The notes below the pieces were generated by a model. That model was given only the letters and a program-made list of their open reading frames with translations. It did not search any database and was not told the DNA's origin. 34,522 bases of DNA, taken from positions 1 to 34,522 of the forward strand of contig CAIOSP010000113.1 of NCBI GenBank assembly GCA_903861005.1, read 5' to 3'. Positions within the stretch are counted from its first letter, which is position 1; every line of letters begins with the position of its first letter. A program made the translations under genes and the position numbers. Origin of the DNA: an uncultured Pseudomonadota bacterium (GTDB lineage: Bacteria; Myxococcota_A; UBA796; GCA-2862545). Shown piece after piece: positions 26,201 through 34,522 of the stretch.

Positions 26201-26358
26201 TGCCCGTAGAGCGCGTAGCTGATCGCGTCGAACAGCGTGGTCTTGCCCGCGCCCGTGTCACCGCCGATCAAGAACACCGGGTCGAGCCTGTCGAACGGGA
26301 TGAGCTGCTTGTCGGCGTAGGGCCCGAAGCCCTGGAGCTCAAGCTCGAGCGGCCTCAT
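23293..26358 (-). CDS. sbcC: Exonuclease SbcC (Rad50-like ATPase subunit)
   Basis: SbcC is the ATPase of the SbcCD complex, which processes hairpins and protein-blocked DNA ends. This 1021-residue protein has Walker A GGDTGAGKTT (32-41) at the N-terminus, long Ala/Arg/Glu-rich coiled coils, a zinc-hook CPVC (C511, C514) at the apex, and the C-terminal head with the signature LSGGEKFMAS and Walker B LFIDEGFGSLD (~960). The FSKILVLPQGEFQRFLE segment is the family's Q-loop region. The start overlaps the sbcD stop by 4 nt. Coiled-coil regions are strongly alanine-rich, as expected for this GC content. Motif set and gene order leave little doubt. Confidence 0.95.
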   Translation of the reverse strand: MRPLELELQGFGPYADKQLIPFDRLDPVFLIGGDTGAGKTTLFDAISYALYGQPLGTRASDQVRSNLVADDVSTYVRFRFACGGAVWEVYRSPYTVRAAKRGGGTVVEEITTLQQIGADGVRTPFPGKPGEINRKLAGEILKLSHDHFSKILVLPQGEFQRFLEMESSQRGVILERLFPIEEHRLLKTRADDSVRGILAAVKEKEAALAEVRRGLLAGPEVADLEAHLDAADAALVGAVSQAAQTELGANKAAQTARAALDAAGLLARQLEQLATATAERAVVESQREATDAARQTLDASRRATLAQLAIDAEAKLRAQVGEAASLLERQTGARDAATARREAMRAQVDALPARESALRAAEEAQVGLESRVGDLTSLVSAETACRTAAEAVTATVERVGAAAQAVAGAEASLAELAAPAAARTPASDAARAARDRVGALDALAPDAKRIRDWSERYAPELDKRRASARTSASRLQAEEEAARVALDTARARRDAQAAAWLAGTLTEGAACPVCGSVDHPAPAHGGAGDEDLRASVANAERALASATSAVAADAATQREVESKAGVLLEVAEEATQRLVAAGFGDVGAWQQAKVEADTEQRRTADALTTLEATLATRPTREKALELVRARKAAADEAAAKAAVDQASAEASKAALIARVGAVDDVQAALARARAELVAARTRTASEREAILALRAAWSALESEVAAAAAAVTTTSDSLAALRARTAAALAAVTEALVAQGFWTAEDALAAVRAPAVEASLRRQVDAWVERVTQLDTQVRDLSAAVSGRAAPDLVLLRQEAESTAASAVAATAARAGAERDLSDLRVRRARHVALQAEIDALTQDSAGLLQLAKDLGGDNARRVDFPTYVLMGWLNQVLARATTRLQVLSEGRYRFALRADVTDRRKAAGLDVDVFDAYSADRRDVKTLSGGEKFMASLSLALGLADVIQERAGGIELDTLFIDEGFGSLDPSAMDRALQVIDEIGAHRRVGVISHVESVKKAIPCHVLVEKSPTGSTVRVG

Positions 26359-27494
26359 CGTGCGTCTCCGCCGAGCGACGCGCGGAGCGTGGTGAACGCC
26401 GCGAGCACGTCCGGCGGCGCCACGCCCCCGCGCAGGTGCTGCTGGAAGTCGACGAAGTCCGCGCCAAGGTCATCGCGATCGCGGGGGCGCTCGGCCGCCG
26501 AGGTGGGCAGCCCGCTCACATCCACCACCGGGTTGTTGAGCTGGAGCAGGTTCGGGTAGCGCGCCCGCAGCCGCAGCATCGGCTGGCCCGCGAGCACCGC
26601 CTCCTCAAGGGTGATCGACAGGTAGTCGTCGCGCCACGCCTCGAACGCATCGCCGCGCAGCAGCGTGTCGAGCGTGCCCGACAGCGTTCGCAGGGGACGC
26701 AGTGGCGTGATCACCTTCTGCGTGGCGAGCGGCAGCGCGCCCGCGCGCACATCCACCGACAGCACGCCCTTGGTGTCGCCAGACTCAGAGAAGCTGTACT
26801 GCAGCAAGGACCCCGAGTAGCGCGCGTGGGTACCCACCGACTGCGGCCGGTGCAGGTGACCCAGCGCGACGTAGTCGAACCCGCCGAACAGCGCGCCGTC
26901 CACCGTGGTGGCCTGGCCGATCAGCGTGCGCTCCGAGTCCGACACCTTGCCGCCCTGCGCGAAGCAGTGCGCCACCGCCACCTGGGTGAGGCCTGGGCTC
27001 TGCCGCGCGCGGATCTTGCCGACCGCCGCCTCGAGCGCCGCCGCCTGCGTGGTCGGCCCGCCGTCCGCCGACGCCATGCTGCCCGGCCACAGGAACGGAA
27101 TCGCCCACACCTCAGCCTTCTCGCCCGCGGCGGTGGTGATGCGAACGGGGTGCTCGACGCGGTCCGCCTCGCCGCGGATGTGCACGCCCGACCGCGCCAG
27201 CAGGCCCTGGGACCAGGCCAGCCGCACGCCGTTGTCGTGGTTGCCCGCGATCAGGACGATGGGCAGCTCAGGCGCCACGCCACGGACGTGGTTCAGCCAA
27301 TCGCCAAGCAGCGCCACCGCCGACTCCGGCGGGATGCCACGATCGAAGATGTCGCCGGCCACCACGAGCAGATCGTGCGGATCGTCCACCAGCAGCTGCG
27401 CGAGCTGATCGAGCGCGTGCCGTTGATCGTCCAGGAGCGATCGCTCGTGGAGCACCTTCCCGAGGTGCCAGTCTGACGTGTGAAGGATGCGCAT
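26355..27494 (-). CDS. sbcD: Exonuclease SbcD (Mre11-like nuclease subunit)
   Basis: SbcD is the Mn-dependent nuclease partner of SbcC. The 379-residue protein carries the metallophosphoesterase motifs in order: DWHLGK (D8, H10), GDIFDRG, GNHDNG, the late His in VAHCF, and GHLHRPQ. Start ATG 27494 gives the standard MRILHTSDWHLG. It overlaps sbcC by 4 nt. Its upstream region (27495-27597) holds a palindrome at 27548-27564 and then the msrA remnant, the left boundary of the accessory island. Confidence 0.95.
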   Translation of the reverse strand: MRILHTSDWHLGKVLHERSLLDDQRHALDQLAQLLVDDPHDLLVVAGDIFDRGIPPESAVALLGDWLNHVRGVAPELPIVLIAGNHDNGVRLAWSQGLLARSGVHIRGEADRVEHPVRITTAAGEKAEVWAIPFLWPGSMASADGGPTTQAAALEAAVGKIRARQSPGLTQVAVAHCFAQGGKVSDSERTLIGQATTVDGALFGGFDYVALGHLHRPQSVGTHARYSGSLLQYSFSESGDTKGVLSVDVRAGALPLATQKVITPLRPLRTLSGTLDTLLRGDAFEAWRDDYLSITLEEAVLAGQPMLRLRARYPNLLQLNNPVVDVSGLPTSAAERPRDRDDLGADFVDFQQHLRGGVAPPDVLAAFTTLRASLGGDAR

Positions 27495-27564: not shown

Positions 27565-27597
27565 AACGAAGCGCGCGTCGACGACGCGTCGCGAGGG

Positions 27598-27684
27598 TCA
27601 GGCGCCCGTGCCCACCTGGCAGCTCACGCCCGTCCCGCCGATCCCACAGTACCCGCCCGGATTCTTCCACAGGTACTGCTGGTG
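27598..27684 (-). pseudogene. msrA: msrA 3'-end remnant (left end of island)
   Basis: The minus strand encodes the last 28 residues of MsrA plus stop, from [11 protein letters not shown] through [18 protein letters not shown]. It matches the right-edge msrA end (34318-34404) codon for codon, but nothing of the MsrA catalytic body precedes it: upstream (plus 27685 on) the sequence becomes AT-richer and unrelated. It is therefore a detached 3' end. Differences from the right copy outside 27647-27684 fall mostly at third codon positions, so both ends evolved as real coding sequence. It most likely is the original gene end displaced by integration. Confidence 0.8.
27647..27684. repeat. Left copy of the island boundary repeat (candidate attachment core)
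   Basis: This 38-bp stretch matches 34367-34404 with one mismatch (C27670 versus G34390). Immediately left of it the two copies drop to about 69% identity by hand count over 49 bases; immediately right they are unrelated. Such a sharp identity block inside a gene end is the usual look of an integrase crossover core. Confidence 0.6.
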
Positions 27685-27835
27685 AGAAGGTTTTGATACC
27701 CTTTGTACCTTTCTTATTCTGCGAACTGCCCACGTCCTACGGAAGAGTGCCCACGATGAGGACGACAGGCCCCAGGACCTCCGCCCCGTTGGCGGCATCG
27801 AGGTTTCGGACGGCGGGCGCTCACGCGCGCCGAGA

Positions 27836-27938
27836 CCCGATGCGTGTCCGTCATGCAGAGCCAAGCTCACCCTCCGCCGACGATCGTATCGAATGTCCCA
27901 CGCGCACGTTAGAGCGTCGACGCCGATGTTCACGGTAG
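27836..27938. repeat. Direct repeat A of a ~102-bp pair
   Basis: It aligns with 28549-28650 at roughly 85% identity by hand with one 1-bp indel. The longest exact block is TATCGAATGTCCCACGCGC (27887-27905). It includes CGAT-CGT-ATCG (27881-27891), an inverted repeat conserved in copy B. Copies A and B bracket the 119-aa gene, and each precedes one of the two small genes. The role could be regulatory, an integrase/excisionase binding region or an RNA; this is not resolved. Confidence 0.75.
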
Positions 27939-28020
27939 ACTCCTTAACCTTGGCACCGCCACGATGTCTGCCGATGGCGATTCCACGCCCGAGTCCATCG
28001 TGAAGCCAACCCCAGCGCCC

Positions 28021-28034
28021 CAGGGTTCGCCCTG
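28021..28034 (+). other. UUCG-tetraloop hairpin upstream of the 119-aa gene
   Basis: CAGGG and CCCTG (28021-28025, 28030-28034) enclose TTCG, a very stable RNA tetraloop. An outer CGCC/GGCG pair (28016-28019, 28040-28043) could extend the stem. It lies 88 bp before the gene start and may be a leader structure or attenuator. Confidence 0.35.
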
Positions 28035-28121
28035 AACTTGGCGATCGCGGTGTCCGCCCCGTCGATCGCAGAGGCACGCCAAGCCGTCATCCTAGACCTC
28101 ACCCATCACAAGGGGTTCAGC

Positions 28122-28481
28122 ATGCGACCGTCCCGCCCTGGCTTCAAGCCCACCGACCCCGCGATCCGCGCGGCCCTTCCCCCGCGCCTGCTCTCCGCGG
28201 CCGCCGTGACCCGTACCGGCGTGCCCGTCCGGGCCCCGCGCTGGGTGCCCGGCGACTACGTGTTCGTGCCCCACCGCGGCGTCAACGTGCCCGTGATCGG
28301 CGTCGCGTTCGACAACCGCGCGAGCCGCCCCGCGATCACGTCCCCGTGGCGCATCCAGACGGCGCGCGGCGTGGCGATGGCCGAGTCCTACTTCAAGCCC
28401 ATCCGGCCCGACCGCCCTACCGTGTTGTACGAACACATCGACGGGCGCTGGATTGAGACAGCGCGGAACGACGCCGAGTAG
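28122..28481 (+). CDS. Small island protein of unknown function (119 aa)
   Basis: It starts at ATG 28122 six bases after AGGGG. The 119-residue product is basic and Pro/Arg-rich at the N-terminus (MRPSRPGFKPTDPAIRAALPPRLL) and then has a beta-like middle (VPGDYVFVPHRGVNVPVIGVAFDN) and a C-terminal YEHIDGRWIETARNDAE. There is no signal peptide, membrane helix or cysteine. I recognise no family. It stands alone between direct repeats A and B, which suggests a cassette-like unit. Confidence 0.55.
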   Translation: MRPSRPGFKPTDPAIRAALPPRLLSAAAVTRTGVPVRAPRWVPGDYVFVPHRGVNVPVIGVAFDNRASRPAITSPWRIQTARGVAMAESYFKPIRPDRPTVLYEHIDGRWIETARNDAE

Positions 28482-28548
28482 CCGGGATGCCGCTGGCCTG
28501 CCGACCCGTGTCGAGGGTCATACAGCGCCCCGTAGGCCCCTGACTAGG

Positions 28549-28650
28549 CCGGATACGTGTCCGTCATACAGACGCAAGGTGACCTTCGCCGTCGATCCTA
28601 TCGAATGTCCCACGCGCGCTTTAGCGCATCGACGCCGATGATCACGGTAG
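28549..28650. repeat. Direct repeat B of the ~102-bp pair
   Basis: Second copy of the repeat at 27836-27938, offset by 712-713 bp. It shares the exact 19-bp block at 28599-28617 and carries an inverted repeat TCGAT-CCT-ATCGA (28592-28604) and CATCG-ACGC-CGATG in its right part. It ends about 35 bp before the start of the excisionase-like gene, so it may contain that gene's promoter or operator. Confidence 0.75.
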
Positions 28651-28684
28651 GGTGGTCTCTAGATCCTGGCGGCGGGGTGGTCCC

Positions 28685-29008
28685 TTGAACGTGGCGGTTG
28701 ACATCCTGGCCCAGCTCATGCGGCTGTCGGGCAGCGCGAAGCGCGGGCGCGTGACCAGCGCCGCGCGGCCGGTGGGTCTCGGCCCGTGCGACGTGCTGAC
28801 GATGGCGGAGGCGATCGCGATGCTCGGCATGCGGGAGCCCGACGCGCGCCGGTGGCTGGCGAACCACAGCCTGGTGCATGACGTCGCCGGGCGCGAGCGG
28901 GTGATCGCCGGGGACCTGGCGGAGGCGATCCGCGGGACGGGGAAGACGGGGCTGTCGCCGCGGGCGGTCGCGCCGGTGCGGAAGCTGCCGATGTCGACGA
29001 GGGTGTAG
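28685..29008 (+). CDS. Small HTH protein, excisionase-like
   Basis: The 107-residue product is taken from TTG 28685 (a GGGGTGG run lies just upstream); GTG 28691 is an alternative. The centre, VLTMAEAIAMLGMREPDARRWLANHSLV followed by an RVIAGDLAEAIRG segment, has the layout of MerR/excisionase-type winged helices: a helix-turn-helix, a short basic wing and a last helix. The flanks are basic. Proteins of this type direct excision or regulate neighbouring genes in mobile elements, which fits the island. The match is by pattern only. Confidence 0.55.
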   Translation: MNVAVDILAQLMRLSGSAKRGRVTSAARPVGLGPCDVLTMAEAIAMLGMREPDARRWLANHSLVHDVAGRERVIAGDLAEAIRGTGKTGLSPRAVAPVRKLPMSTRV

Positions 29009-29085
29009 GACAGCGCCTGTACGCATGGCCAGCTACGACGTCCCGGCCGCAGACCAGACCGAACTGCGCGCTCGGGGAACCCGCG

Positions 29086-30441
29086 ATGTCTGACCCCGTC
29101 CACCGACGCCTCGACGAGCTCGACCGCGACCAGCTGGTCGCGCTGGTCCATCGCCTGCTCGACCGTGAGCCCAGCCTGGCGGACCTCGTCCAGATCCCAC
29201 TGCCGAGCGAGCGCCGCCCCATTCAGCCCGAACCGGTCGCCGCGCAGGTCACGGAGATCCTGCTCACGATGGGCGACGACTGGCGCGCCTCGATGCGCGC
29301 GGAGCGTGAGCTCACACCCTTGGTTGGCCTCGGGACGCACTTCCTCGACGCGGGGGCCGTGGCCGACGCACACGTCGTCTGGCGCACCATCGCCCTCACC
29401 GTCCTTCGCCACTACCTGTCCATCCGGGACGAGGAGAGCGAGGTCGCAGGCATCGTGAACGAGTGCGTGACCGGCCTGGGCAAGTGCCTTGACCAGACCA
29501 CGGACTGCGCCGCGCGCCGCGCGATCCTCGACGACGTGTTCTCCGTGTTCCGGTGGGACTGCCTGGAGCACGGCAGCTTCGGGATGGACGAGCCAGCGGC
29601 GACCATCCTTGTCGAGCGAACCACTGCGGTCGAGCGCGAGGCGATGGCGGCTATCACCCTCGCGGCGCTCCCAAGCGGAAGCCACAGCCACGCGCGCTGG
29701 CACCGCCAGCACGGCGGACGCCTCGTCCTCCGTCTCGTCGGCGACAGCCTCGGACCGGTCGAACGTGAGCGCGTACTGGCAGCGGCCGAACTGGACGCCG
29801 AGCGGCTTGACCTGCTCGTCGCCGCTGGCCGTGTTGCCGAGGCGATCGCGTTGGTCCGGGCGGCGCCGGGCAGCGACGTGGCGGACCTCGCCGATCGGCT
29901 GATCCGGCACGGCCACCGGGAGCCCGCGCGAGACGCGGTCCGCGACCACGCAGGCATGCTGTCGACGTCGAACCACCACCTTCGCTCGTGGATGCAAGAC
30001 CACGACCTTCCACTGCCGCCGAAACTCGACTCGCTTCTGGAGGCGCTCAGCAGCTTCAACGTGCGGACCGACATCGGCCACTACAAGGCGCTGCGCGAGG
30101 CCGCCTGTGCCTCAGGTCAGTGGCCGCGCGTGCTCGACCACCTTGAAGCCATCGACGCCACGCGCTCAAAGTACCAGCCCGTTCGGGCACGGATTGCCGC
30201 AGATCGCGGCGACGTCGGGGGTGCGCTCGCCGAGCTCGACGGCCTGAAGGACAGCACCTGGCGGGCGGCGACGGAGGACGTCGCGCGATCGTTGGAGGTG
30301 TACGACGCGGACGCGGCGCTGGCGCTCTACCAGAAACTGCTCGACGACCTCCGCGCACACGGGACCGCCCACGCCAGGAAGCGGGCGGACGAGGTCGCGG
30401 AGCGCATTGCCGCCGCGCGGGCGTGGCCATCGAGGCGATGA
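29086..30441 (+). CDS. Helical-repeat protein resembling SWIM-associated (DUF6880-like) regions
   Basis: This 451-residue protein starts at ATG 29086 with GGGGA upstream. The N-terminus (LDELDRDQLVALVHRLLDREPSLADLV) and the alternating short helices after residue ~230 (LLVAAGRVAEAIALVRAAPG, LADRLIRHGHREPARDAV, LREAACASGQWPRVLDHL) resemble the C-terminal helical region found in SWIM zinc-finger proteins. The CxC-xH finger itself is absent; only scattered Cys/His occur. It probably forms a solenoid that binds a partner. No catalytic motif was seen. It lies 68 bp before the TPR gene, on the same strand. Confidence 0.6.
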   Translation: MSDPVHRRLDELDRDQLVALVHRLLDREPSLADLVQIPLPSERRPIQPEPVAAQVTEILLTMGDDWRASMRAERELTPLVGLGTHFLDAGAVADAHVVWRTIALTVLRHYLSIRDEESEVAGIVNECVTGLGKCLDQTTDCAARRAILDDVFSVFRWDCLEHGSFGMDEPAATILVERTTAVEREAMAAITLAALPSGSHSHARWHRQHGGRLVLRLVGDSLGPVERERVLAAAELDAERLDLLVAAGRVAEAIALVRAAPGSDVADLADRLIRHGHREPARDAVRDHAGMLSTSNHHLRSWMQDHDLPLPPKLDSLLEALSSFNVRTDIGHYKALREAACASGQWPRVLDHLEAIDATRSKYQPVRARIAADRGDVGGALAELDGLKDSTWRAATEDVARSLEVYDADAALALYQKLLDDLRAHGTAHARKRADEVAERIAAARAWPSRR

Positions 30442-30486
30442 ACGACGCCAACAGACTCGACGAGGGTGGGCCGCCGATGTAGTTCT

Positions 30487-30498
30487 CTATTCGAATAG
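30487..30498. promoter_or_regulatory. 12-bp perfect palindrome before the TPR/zinc-ribbon gene
   Basis: CTATTCGAATAG is a perfect 12-base palindrome ending 11 bases upstream of the ATG at 30510 and just before its GGAG. In DNA of this base composition such an AT-rich palindrome is unlikely by chance, so a repressor site or 5' UTR element is plausible. Confidence 0.4.
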
Positions 30499-30509
30499 TG
30501 GAGCACTAC

Positions 30510-32162
30510 ATGTTCGTTCGCCGGAAACGGGGACAGGTCGCGGTCGTTCACAGCCGTCGCGTCGGCGGGCGGGTCCGCCAGCAGGTGATCGCGACGTTCG
30601 CCTCGGCCGCAGAGCTCGAAGAGACGCTGGGGCAGTTCGACATTTGGCAAGCCCAGGTCGCACGCGAGTACCCGGACGTCGAGGCGGACTGGGACCAGGT
30701 GCGCGCCGATCTGGCGCGGCACCGGCTGCGCCTGGAGGCCGAAGCGACGCCGCTGCCATCCCCCATCGCCGACTTCGCCGAGGCGCTGGCGGCGATGCTT
30801 AGCCGGACCAGCCCGGCACGCGCCGGCGACCGCGCCATGCTCGACCAGTGCCGCCCCGCTCTCGCGCGCGTCGCGGACCAACTCGACCGGGTGCTGGGCC
30901 GGTCCTCCCAACCGGCCGACCTCGCCGTGCGAGATCGCAGCGCCGACGAAGTGTTCGACGAGGGCATGGAGCAGTGGTGGTCCGGTGACCGGGATCTCGC
31001 CATCCGGAGCTTTCGCGAAGTGCACAGCCTCGATCCCCTCCACGCGGACGCGCACAACCATCTCGGCCTCGCTGAGATGGAGCTCGGCCGCCTCGACGAG
31101 GCCGAAGCGCACTTCCGCTGCGCGGTGGACGGCGGCGCCCGGCACCTCGAGGCCGACGGCGGCTTCCTCCCATGGGGCATGCTGGAGAACCGCCCCTACC
31201 TCCGAGCGCAGGGCAACCTGGCGCACGTGCTCGCAGTCCGCGGGAGATGGGACGCGGTCGCCCGGATCTACGAACAACTCCTCGCGTGGAACCCCCGCGA
31301 CAACCAGGGAGTCCGGTACCTGCTCGGCGACGCGTACCACCGGCTTGGGCGCACCCGTGATGCGATTGCGGCCTACGAACGCGCGGACGAGGACGCCGGC
31401 CCTTGTTTCGGACTAGCGCTCGCACTGCTTGAGTCTGGCCGACCCGCCGAAGCCGACCGCGCCCTCATCCGCGGGATGGTGCAGAACCGTTACGTCGCGC
31501 CGATGCTGCTCGGCAGGCCCTGGACCCGCGTGCGCGGTTGGCATGGCTCAAATGTCGCCGAGCCCGAGTGGGCCGCCGACTACGTGCGGAGCTCGGGCGA
31601 CCTCTGGCGACGCTCCCCGCACCTCCCGAGGCTCGTGGCGGTCCATGGCCACCCGGCCGTTCAGGCCCAGCTCGCAGATCTCGATGACTGGATGGTCGCG
31701 ATGGAGGCCGCCCCGAGCGGCGAGGCGCGCCGTGAGCTGCTCGCAAGCCGCGAAGCGATCCTCGGGGCCGTGAGCATCGCGCGGGTCGAGCGTGCGCTCG
31801 CTGGGGAGCCGTGGACGCCGCGTCCCCTCGAACCGCCGAGTCGGTTCGCTCGGGGTGGTGCCTTGGTGGTCGATCTCCGGCACTGGCAGCCCGACGACGG
31901 CGATCCCTACTCGTTGCCCGCACCCGTACGGCGGCTGGCGACGCACGTCGGCGGCATCGTCACGGCCGTGCTGGAGCAGCGACGCGCAGACCCGGTCGAC
32001 ACTCGCGCGGACTGCCGACGTCGCCCGGGTCGGCACCCATGCGGCGGGAGCATCCGAGCACAACTCGTCGAGGACACCGTGGAGTGGGCCTGTCCGAGGT
32101 GCGGCGACCACGGGTTCGTCACGGGGTGGTCAGGGACGATCTGGGATGCTGGGAACGGGTGA
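30510..32162 (+). CDS. TPR protein with C-terminal zinc-ribbon-like motif
   Basis: This 550-residue protein starts at ATG 30510 six to seven bases after GGAG; a GTG at 30498 is possible. The first ~35 residues (MFVRRKRGQVAVVHSRRVGG, then RQQVIATF) resemble the N-terminal beta-strand of IS1634-type transposases and related proteins. TPR-like pairs follow from ~150: IRSFREVHSLDPLHADAHNHLGLAEMELGRLDEAEAHF, then ARIYEQLLAWNPRDNQGVRYLLGDAYHRLGRTRDAIAAY. The last 40 residues carry CGGS (C511), CPRCGDHG (C528, C531) and GWSGTIWD, a Cys set fitting a zinc ribbon. A docking/scaffold role is inferred. Confidence 0.65.
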   Translation: MFVRRKRGQVAVVHSRRVGGRVRQQVIATFASAAELEETLGQFDIWQAQVAREYPDVEADWDQVRADLARHRLRLEAEATPLPSPIADFAEALAAMLSRTSPARAGDRAMLDQCRPALARVADQLDRVLGRSSQPADLAVRDRSADEVFDEGMEQWWSGDRDLAIRSFREVHSLDPLHADAHNHLGLAEMELGRLDEAEAHFRCAVDGGARHLEADGGFLPWGMLENRPYLRAQGNLAHVLAVRGRWDAVARIYEQLLAWNPRDNQGVRYLLGDAYHRLGRTRDAIAAYERADEDAGPCFGLALALLESGRPAEADRALIRGMVQNRYVAPMLLGRPWTRVRGWHGSNVAEPEWAADYVRSSGDLWRRSPHLPRLVAVHGHPAVQAQLADLDDWMVAMEAAPSGEARRELLASREAILGAVSIARVERALAGEPWTPRPLEPPSRFARGGALVVDLRHWQPDDGDPYSLPAPVRRLATHVGGIVTAVLEQRRADPVDTRADCRRRPGRHPCGGSIRAQLVEDTVEWACPRCGDHGFVTGWSGTIWDAGNG

Positions 32163-32301
32163 CACCGAGATCGATGGCCTGCGCTACGCAGCGTCCAGCG
32201 AGGTCGTCGCCGATCTGCTCGGCAGTCCCCGTCGTGGGCCCGCGGAGGCGGAAGCCCTCATCACGTGGATGCTCGCGCACCAGGACGAATGGCGCACGTG
32301 A
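32146..32301 (+). CDS. 51-residue ORF overlapping the TPR gene end
   Basis: A short frame from ATG 32146 to TGA 32301 overlaps the preceding gene by 17 nt in another frame. The product (MLGTGDTEIDGLRYAASSEV, then LLGSPRRGPAEAEALITWML) is acidic and probably helical. Translational coupling is possible because an AGGGA lies 12-15 bases upstream. The TTG of the next gene follows 55 bp later. It may be a real small partner or an unused frame; no family is recognised. Confidence 0.4.
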   Translation: MLGTGDTEIDGLRYAASSEVVADLLGSPRRGPAEAEALITWMLAHQDEWRT

Positions 32302-32356
32302 TCGCCCACCGCGTGCTACCCGACTCACACCGCCGCAAGGTCCTCCGAGGCATCGC

Positions 32357-34012
32357 TTGAGCCAGATCCCCGCCGCCGAATCGCTGACCGTCGAGTTCAA
32401 GTCCGACATGAAGGGGCTGCCCAATCGCGACCTCGTGGAGGCCGTGGTTTGCTTGGCCAACACGGACGGAGGATCGCTTTACCTGGGCGTAGAAGACGAC
32501 GGCACGGCCACCGGCCTCCACGCCTCGCACGCCAACGTGACGGGCCTCGGCGCGCTGATCGCGAACCGCACCTCGCCCGCGATCGCGGTGACGGTGTCGA
32601 CGCTCGTCATCAGCGGCGTCTCCGTCGCCCGCATCGACATTCCGAAGGCCGCGCAGCTGGTCGCCACCCGTGACGGCGTCTACAAGCGCCGCAGGCTCCA
32701 GCATGACGGACGCCCCGAGTGCGTTCCCTTCCTGCCCCACGAGTTCGCGCATCGTCTGTCGGGGCTTGGCGTGGTCGATTCCTCCGCGCTGCCGCTCACC
32801 GGCGCCACGCTCGCCGACCTGGACCCCGCGGAGCGCGCACGCCTCCGTCAGTTCGTCGAGCGCTTTCACGGCGATCGGGCCTTGCTGGAGCTCAGTGACG
32901 AGGAGCTCGACGGTGCCCTGGGCCTCACCACCCGTGTCGACGGCGTCAGGGTGCCCACGCTGGCGGGCCTGTTGCTGATCGGTCGAGACGAGTCGCTGCG
33001 ACGGCTGGTGCCCACGCACGAGCTGGCCCTCCAACTCCTTGATGGTGAGGAGGTTCGCTTCAACGAGTTCACGCGTGCGCCGCTGCTGCGGGCCTTCGAG
33101 TGGCTGGAGGCCTCGCTCGGCACCGTCAACGTGGAGAAGGAGATCCAGGTCGGGATGTTCCGCGTTCCGGTGCCGCTCATCGACCGACGGGCTCTGCGCG
33201 AGGCGATCGCCAACGCCCTGACCCACCGCGACTACACGCTGCTCAACGCCGTCTACATCCGCCTTGAGCGAGACTTCCTCGTCGTGAGCAGCCCCGGCGG
33301 CTTCGTCGATGGCGTCAACCTCACCAACCTGCTGACGACCGCTCCGCATCCACGAAACCCGAAGCTGGCAGACGCGTTCAAGCGTATCGGCCTGGTCGAA
33401 CGCACAGGCCGGGGGGTGGACCTGATCTTCCGCGGGGTGTTGCGCTTCGGCCGTCCTGCTCCGGACTATGCACGCAGCACGTCGCAGATGGTGACGCTCC
33501 GTATTCCCACTGCGGAAGCGGACCTCGCCTTCTTCCGAATGGTTCTGGACGAGGAGCAGCGCCTCGCGTCACCGCTGCCGATGGACACGCTGATCGCCCT
33601 AGGCGCGCTGCGGGAACATCGACGACTCACCCGTGCGGAGCTGGCCGCACACCTGCACGCCACCGACGCCGTCGCGCTGGCCACCCTAGAAACGCTAGTC
33701 GAGCACGGACTCGTGACCCCACACGGGAATGGGCGCGGTCGGGCCTACACGCTCGCTCCGCAGTTGTATGCGAGACAGGGCCGACCTGCCGACTACACGC
33801 GGCAGGCCGGGTTCGACGCGCTCCAGCAAGAGCAGCTGGTGCGAAACTTCGTGCAGCAGCACGGTGCGATCGATCGCACGGGCACGATGGAGCTCTGCCG
33901 GATCAGCGTCGATCAAGCGAAGCGCTTGCTCAGGCGAATGGTCGAGGATGGCACGCTGATGAAGGTCGGAATCAGCAGGGCCACCCGGTACCTGCTCCGG
34001 TCTGGGGCCTGA
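32357..34012 (+). CDS. AlbA_2/Schlafen-type protein with GHKL-like ATPase region and C-terminal HTH (COG2865-like)
   Basis: This 551-residue protein starts at TTG 32357, six bases after GAGG. Order of regions: an AlbA_2 domain (EFKSDMKG at 13-20, LANTDGGSLYLGVEDDG at ~33-49, VARIDIPKA and YKRRR), then a linker, then a GHKL ATPase-like part (EAIANALTHRDY with N286, then VVSSPGGF, HPRNPKLADAFKRIGLVERTGRGVD), and winged-helix pairs at the C-terminus (LRRMVEDGTLMKVGISRATRYLL). It matches the divergent RecG-C/COG2865 architecture. Such proteins are transcription regulators or defence-associated nuclease/ATPases; which applies here is not known. Confidence 0.85.
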   Translation: MSQIPAAESLTVEFKSDMKGLPNRDLVEAVVCLANTDGGSLYLGVEDDGTATGLHASHANVTGLGALIANRTSPAIAVTVSTLVISGVSVARIDIPKAAQLVATRDGVYKRRRLQHDGRPECVPFLPHEFAHRLSGLGVVDSSALPLTGATLADLDPAERARLRQFVERFHGDRALLELSDEELDGALGLTTRVDGVRVPTLAGLLLIGRDESLRRLVPTHELALQLLDGEEVRFNEFTRAPLLRAFEWLEASLGTVNVEKEIQVGMFRVPVPLIDRRALREAIANALTHRDYTLLNAVYIRLERDFLVVSSPGGFVDGVNLTNLLTTAPHPRNPKLADAFKRIGLVERTGRGVDLIFRGVLRFGRPAPDYARSTSQMVTLRIPTAEADLAFFRMVLDEEQRLASPLPMDTLIALGALREHRRLTRAELAAHLHATDAVALATLETLVEHGLVTPHGNGRGRAYTLAPQLYARQGRPADYTRQAGFDALQQEQLVRNFVQQHGAIDRTGTMELCRISVDQAKRLLRRMVEDGTLMKVGISRATRYLLRSGA

Positions 34013-34317
34013 CTCTGCCCCTATTTGCGGGCGCGCCCATAAGTTCTGGACGCCCGCCCGCATTCAGCACAACTGTGCTTCACCCGATATTTTTAACGAT
34101 CCCGACGCGGCCGATCGGGGTGTAACTCGGGCATTTGCGGGCGGTTGCGGGCGCGCCGAGACCGAATCACTGCGCGTCACGTCACCACCCGCAGGTGCGC
34201 CGTCGCCGCCGGAGGCCCGGCTTCGTCGACCTGGAGGCGTCTCGGGGGCCTTGAAACTGGTCAGAGAATCCACTGGATTCGGGGCGTTTCGTCCGCCCAT
34301 CTGTGACCACTCCGCCG
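34013..34317. other. Non-coding right arm of the island with phased repeats
   Basis: No gene is seen in 305 bases. TGCGGGCG occurs at 34026-34033, 34136-34143 and 34146-34153 on the plus strand and inverted at 34055-34062. The middle two are exactly 10 bp apart, one helical turn. An inverted repeat CCCGAT/ATCGGG (34083-34088, 34114-34119) flanks an AT-rich core with a T-run. This looks like arm-type protein-binding sites of an integration end, or a regulatory region. Confidence 0.5.
34026..34062 (+). terminator. Inverted repeat after the AlbA_2 gene
   Basis: TGCGGGCG (34026-34033) pairs with CGCCCGCA (34055-34062) across 21 bases, 14 bp after the AlbA_2 stop. The arm contains a palindrome, GGGCGCGCCC (34030-34039). 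It may terminate transcription of the island operon or be part of the phased repeats. Confidence 0.35.
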
Positions 34318-34522
34318 TCACGCGCCCGTGCCGATCGGACACGAAACGCCGGTTCCACCTATACCGCAGTACCCGCCCGGATTCTTCCAGAGGTACTGCT
34401 GGTGGTAATCCTCAGCGTAGTAAAACACCGGCGCGTCCAAGATCTCCGTCGTCACCACGCCAAAACCTGACTCCGTGAGCCGCTTCTGATACGCCTCACG
34501 CGTGGCCTCGGCGGCGGCCTTC
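34318..34522 (-). CDS. msrA: Peptide methionine sulfoxide reductase MsrA (C-terminal part)
   Basis: MsrA reduces methionine S-sulfoxide in proteins. The gene runs off the right edge; 67 C-terminal residues are visible. The segment [19 protein letters not shown] is the conserved MsrA C-terminal substrate-pocket region, followed by [16 protein letters not shown], in which the two Cys fit the resolving/recycling positions. The catalytic N-terminal GCFW lies outside. Its last 28 codons are duplicated at 27598-27684. The visible part is somewhat AT-richer than its neighbours. Confidence 0.92.
34367..34404. repeat. Right copy of the island boundary repeat (candidate attachment core)
   Basis: Matches 27647-27684 in the same orientation with one mismatch. 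It lies inside the coding end of msrA, covering the [13 protein letters not shown] codons. On its left the codons to the stop differ from the left copy mostly at silent positions. Confidence 0.6.

Follow-up and report, generated by a model that had tools for sequence, protein, structure and literature searches.

CIMEs, described among the ICESt1-related elements of Streptococcus, keep both att ends, carry no integrase and stack in tandem (PMC5704250). Islander islands are defined by a regenerated target together with a displaced fragment of it (PMC4383910). In PhiM247 of Lactobacillus crispatus, the att site takes in part of msrA (PMC10763512). As to possible cargo, bacterial Schlafen RNases with the domain order AlbA_2-HATPase-wHTH are reported to be widespread beside BREX systems and to be linked to anti-phage defence (PMC12839542).

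The window, i.e. the whole stretch of DNA that was analysed, is a contig of 34,522 nucleotides from an uncultured bacterium (genome G000). It contains an island of 6.7 kb (27598-34316), which is flanked by two copies of the final 88 bp of the repair gene msrA (Table 1). The two copies, both on the minus strand, are identical at 72 of 88 bases, whereas none of 100 Markov shuffles exceeded 46 of 88. The host gene is completed by the copy on the right, and the one on the left is its displaced old end, so that an intact target lies at one end of the island and a displaced fragment at the other. The last 141 bases of the window overlap exactly with the end of another contig of this genome, C152, and, by inspection, the joined contigs hold one continuous msrA reading frame. 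The repeats and this continuous frame together indicate that the element supplies the current msrA end. Host msrA is intact because the ~28 codons that now end it came with the element, while the old end has been moved to the far side. Integration into the 3' end of a gene classically leaves this arrangement. The earlier note on this DNA had only assumed that the genes sit in an island; the island is borne out, and its ends are now defined by the msrA-end repeats.

Table 1. Features of the island and its borders (positions in the window)
Feature	Position	Strand	Basis or remark
sbcD (sbcC beyond), host flank, far side of island	26355..27494	-	ORF translation; collinear in sister genome G001
Displaced msrA 3' end, outer island boundary	27597..27684	-	Repeat match to 34317-34404
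Element end beside recombination point CACCAGCAGTA, with GTGNNCANTTCGC-like motif	27685..27746	-	Element-end alignment, several genomes
106-bp direct repeat copy 1	27833..27938		84% to copy 2
119-aa protein, no family match	28122..28481	+	Identical in G001
106-bp direct repeat copy 2	28546..28650		84% to copy 1
Excisionase-like HTH_17 protein	28685..29008 (alternative start 28652)	+	HTH_17 E 0.017
Helical-repeat (solenoid) protein, 451 aa	29086..30441	+	AF2 model
TPR protein with C-terminal CxxC zinc-ribbon-like end, 550 aa	30510..32162	+	TPR_2 E 1.7e-15
51-aa ORF	32146..32301	+	Homologous stretch in G056
AlbA_2 (Schlafen core)-HATPase_c_4-winged-helix protein, 551 aa, TTG start	32357..34012	+	Pfam
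Functional msrA 3' end, gene running off contig	34317..34522	-	Continues in contig C152, same genome (G000)

The island keeps both att ends and has no integration or transfer genes. These features, together with stacking by att recombination and a restored target gene, are shared with the CIMEs (PMC5704250). Unlike the CIMEs, the elements considered here have msrA as the target, a size of 1.4-6.7 kb and cargo of the toxin-antitoxin (TA) or defence type; they are without a demonstrated related ICE or IME, and their hosts belong to a poorly known, mostly uncultured class. The ends are marked precisely by a regenerated target and a displaced fragment, as in the tRNA/tmRNA-type islands of Islander (PMC4383910); unlike those islands, the target is protein-coding and no integrase lies in the island. 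PhiM247 (PMC10763512) differs from the window's island in using the 5' end of msrA, in being a full siphovirus prophage and in its unrelated host. A bare msrA 3' end starting from the same HQQY codons is also found at the edge of a probable actinobacterial prophage, IMGVR_UViG_3300048598_000022; there, a large serine recombinase rather than a tyrosine integrase lies by the site (L142:12933-14460). It seems that unrelated recombinases have converged on one msrA site. A search of published papers found none in which the msrA 3' end of these bacteria is named as a site of integration.

Contig C152 stops inside the att site after CACCAGCAGTACCTCTGGAAGAA; in the sister genome G001, contig C35 stops at the identical base. 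Assemblers leave such an overlap, one long k-mer at a contig end, where the sequence branches, from which we infer that more than one sequence follows the end of C152 in the population. The breaking of contigs from two separate genomes (window end 34522/G000:C152, and G001:C35) at one att base is possibly a general signal of active att sites in metagenome assemblies. An adjacency of msrA and sbcD was found in none of the relatives' genomes, which therefore offer no empty site with the same neighbours.

In the sister genome G001 (RH-23may17-505), both the flank and the island are the same, with an extra cassette of 1.43 kb between them. This cassette is flanked by msrA ends, and its two genes match PDC-M21A and PDC-M21B (E 2e-31 and 1e-41), which PADLOC lists as a candidate defence pair. 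The left msrA copy of the window is like copy B on the island side of the crossover (upstream) and like copy A on the chromosome side (downstream), which is what one clean insertion or excision requires. Presence and absence of elements thus vary at the site, with one cassette more in G001 and other cargo elsewhere. Between G001 and the window, 2 kb that include the TPR gene are nearly identical against a background divergence of ~6%, and much of the solenoid gene differs by 3-6%. These abrupt changes in identity along the island indicate that it is a recombining patchwork. The far end of the island in G001 is not seen, because the contig ends inside the AlbA_2 gene.

The msrA-end repeats might be thought to have been made and kept by homologous recombination of the ordinary kind, such as may follow natural transformation, with no site-specific integrase involved. 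A homology of ~88 bp could support RecA exchange, the island is without an integrase, and it is a recombination mosaic. This explanation is nevertheless very improbable, considering that the breakpoints lie at one place, HQQY/CACCAGCAGTA, in most genomes, that the element ends are alike outside msrA in part of the family, and that an integrase gene is present at the msrA site in two genomes, G063 and G070.

With regard to the element ends, the 60 bases that adjoin the recombination point within the element show the common pattern GTGNNCACTTCGC ... AACTAY/CACCAGCAGTA. In a leave-one-genome-out test, the right place was recovered for G068:C482, G069, G037:C130 and G014, the window copy and a few others were recovered only weakly, and G034, G013 and G006 were not recovered. 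The displaced ends of G013 and G006 lack the element-end motif and were left out of the motif support. A shared element end is thus supported for part of the family and is suggestive for the window's island.

With regard to the integrase, none is encoded by the island ORFs, and no tyrosine recombinase (PF00589) was found on the window contig or on any displaced-end contig of the eleven genomes that were searched in full; a large serine recombinase (PF07508) is likewise absent from the window's genome. The gene in G063 is integrase-like, with a weak Phage_int_SAM_4 match only, and lies 102 bp downstream of msrA; for its relative in G070 (84% over 76 aa) this distance is 90 bp. In both cases the contig ends ahead of the catalytic domain, which is why the PF00589 and PF07508 searches showed no integrase past msrA; only an inspection, genome by genome, of the gene that first follows msrA revealed them. 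In G028 a homologue is complete, and the R, HxxR and Y motifs typical of tyrosine recombinases are present in it. Nothing in the window's genome matches the integrases of G063 and G070. The integrase and the displaced msrA end of G063 are on different contigs, and the flank of this displaced end resembles those of integrase-less cassettes in G068 and G069. Three integrases near contig starts in G000 (C161, C186 and C181) were considered as the msrA-site integrase and rejected, as they adjoin unrelated sequence.

Displaced msrA ends are present in 11 of the 71 genomes of the class (G000, G001, G013, G014, G015, G034, G037, G063, G068 and G069, and a decayed end in G006), and the integrase-less elements stack in tandem at the msrA 3' end. 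The cargo was tallied as the genes between msrA and the displaced end, or directly downstream of msrA. PDC-M21A/B is found at the site in G006 as well as in G001. G068 carries HipB-HipA and an XRE-DUF6036 nucleotidyltransferase pair in tandem, and the YhcG nuclease PDC-S02 beside another displaced msrA end. The site is occupied by SoFic in G037, by the start of a UG4-type reverse transcriptase in G014, and by DruH and DruE of Druantia III in G015, while in G024 PDC-M31A/B lie downstream of msrA without a displaced end. The PDC families among this cargo are only candidates as defence genes. In most other genomes of the class, the first genes past msrA appear by inspection to be ordinary chromosomal genes, the loci with displaced ends having been examined more closely.

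Several further observations were made at or near these sites. In G015, the Druantia III genes past msrA are followed by a regulator-like protein and by one that resembles, by eye, a member of a CRISPR-associated ring-nuclease family (L177 1-12348). A SIR2-family fragment lies just ahead of a longer msrA 3' fragment in G012 (L144:6284-7897). In G069, an N-terminal remnant of the solenoid gene (L072:4537-4785) lies ~4 kb from the displaced msrA end and may derive from an older element of the same kind. A 166-aa ORF beside this remnant was considered as the end of an AlbA_2 protein and dropped, having no support from BLASTP, PDB or PHROGs. The end motif without an msrA end in G037:C58 was not taken for a secondary-site insertion, since the sequence downstream may be decayed msrA.

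Inside the island, the four co-directional genes with small gaps or overlap that the earlier note had described are confirmed at 29086-34012; all are on the plus strand, with gaps of 68, -17 and 55 bp. The domain content holds up as well: in addition to the TPR match, Pfam gives AlbA_2 (5.1e-16), HATPase_c_4 (2.4e-14) and a DIP2311-like winged helix (6e-8). The excisionase-like regulator said to precede the genes is present as an ORF, and its identity is less secure, the HTH_17 match of 15.8 bits being below the Pfam cut-off of 27. GC content by codon position shows a strong coding signal for all the ORFs except the 51-aa ORF, in which it is weak; this ORF nevertheless resembles the C-terminus of a G056 protein of 331 aa (54% identity over 41 aa). 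An Rfam scan of the island gave no match. The two 106-bp direct repeats bracket the gene of the 119-aa protein and occur nowhere else in the genome; they may be the mark of a nested insertion or a duplicated control region.

To the earlier note, three of the genes had looked like sensor, scaffold and effector of a joint system. If so, the four genes would be one dedicated defence operon, with the solenoid protein as sensor, the TPR protein as scaffold and the Schlafen protein as effector. They do share one strand and small gaps, their order in G001 is the same as far as the contig reaches, and the Schlafen architecture is linked to defence; but the set occurs in no other genome, each gene has different neighbours elsewhere, and the identity to G001 shifts abruptly along the island in a patchwork-like manner. 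A dedicated operon is therefore improbable.

The neighbours of each gene outside the genus are as follows. The solenoid protein has no Pfam match and no sequence match in the PDB. Its AF2 model is an all-helical repeat with a mean pLDDT of 86.8, and a fold search was discarded as a means of identification, as it returned only generic helical repeats, for which a Z of ~12 is uninformative in a helical protein. Among the genomes searched, near-full-length relatives are found only in G001, G056, G060 and G062, the last three at 40-43% identity. The gene directly follows a HIT-PLD-helicase gene in G056, a DUF2357-PDDEXK_7 gene in G060, where an AAA protein and a HIT-helicase are also adjacent, and a gene for a GmrSD-type protein in G062 (L065 5366-10887, L067 9152-18434 and L068 6148-9253). 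Because it stands directly behind restriction-type genes in these three loci, this rare family may have an accessory role in restriction systems of a type IV-like kind. The TPR homologues in G046 and G056 have neither the solenoid nor the AlbA_2 gene nearby, and the closest AlbA_2 homologue (71%, in G039) adjoins core genes on the readable side.

The four-gene set was thus found together in no genome tested outside the genus and, with such different neighbours, is not a conserved operon. The search for conserved gene order that the earlier note had proposed accordingly speaks against a joint system, as the genes occur apart. What it had named as contrary to its proposal is thus observed in part. 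It looks as if the solenoid and TPR proteins were acquired independently, and they are at most candidate partners of the AlbA_2 protein.

The 551-aa protein itself combines an AlbA_2 domain with HATPase and winged-helix domains, i.e. the architecture of Schlafen effectors. It has the domain order of the bacterial Schlafen RNases (PMC12839542) and, unlike them, is not accompanied by BREX genes. Its relative in the PDB is 3lmm (E 4.6e-25). Residues E8 and E13 lie in an ExxxxEFK motif and, by inspection, have the spacing of E205 and E210 of rat SLFN13, a protein that needs its ExxxxE glutamate pair (PMC5862951). The third acid of the E-x4-E plus D triad could be D47 or D48. With this architecture and counterparts of both glutamates, an effector function is plausible, and the protein is likely the effector of the island and a candidate Schlafen-type RNase, as judged from its sequence. 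A mere transcription regulator of the island, in cargo without a defence role, is an unlikely alternative: 3lmm, a solved structure, and the C-terminal Pfam domain belong to the DIP2311 type, for which a role in transcriptional regulation is described, and the closest homologue stands alone, against which are to be set the defence or toxin-antitoxin nature of the other cargo at the msrA site and the presence of the pair required in SLFN13.

Considering all the above, the four genes are best explained as the cargo of a 6.7-kb integrase-less (CIME-like) element at the msrA 3' end, with the cargo serving phage defence or element maintenance, for which we estimate a probability of about three in four. 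The proposal of the earlier note is therefore retained in part: a mobile island with defence and TA genes at the same site in relatives agrees with it, and a joint four-gene system does not. Insertion would be the work of a tyrosine integrase with specificity for the msrA codons HQQY, an enzyme which some elements would supply in cis and which would have been lost from others, such as the window's island, or would act on them in trans from a helper. The cargo, like that at the msrA site elsewhere in the class, would serve phage defence or element maintenance, and the AlbA_2-HATPase-wHTH protein would act as a Schlafen-type RNase turned on by infection.

Chromosomal integrons hold arrays of small cassettes, toxin-antitoxin genes among them. 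By analogy, and more tentatively, the msrA 3' end across the class could be a docking site for small integrase-less defence or TA cassettes, which would be captured, stacked and lost in arrays through an integrase acting in trans and would form an integron-like reservoir. The small-cassette arrays are the common feature; unlike in integrons, no integron integrase is present on the contig here, and the att site appears to be the end of a coding gene rather than attC.

A fixed docking site predicts that, in poorly known bacteria, defence and TA genes are to be sought immediately beyond msrA. Several genes still without a name (solenoid, PDC-M21 and TPR-zinc-ribbon) are thereby placed in a defence context, and the msrA-site elements are a natural set of tiny integrase-less cassettes suited to the direct study of mobilisation in trans.
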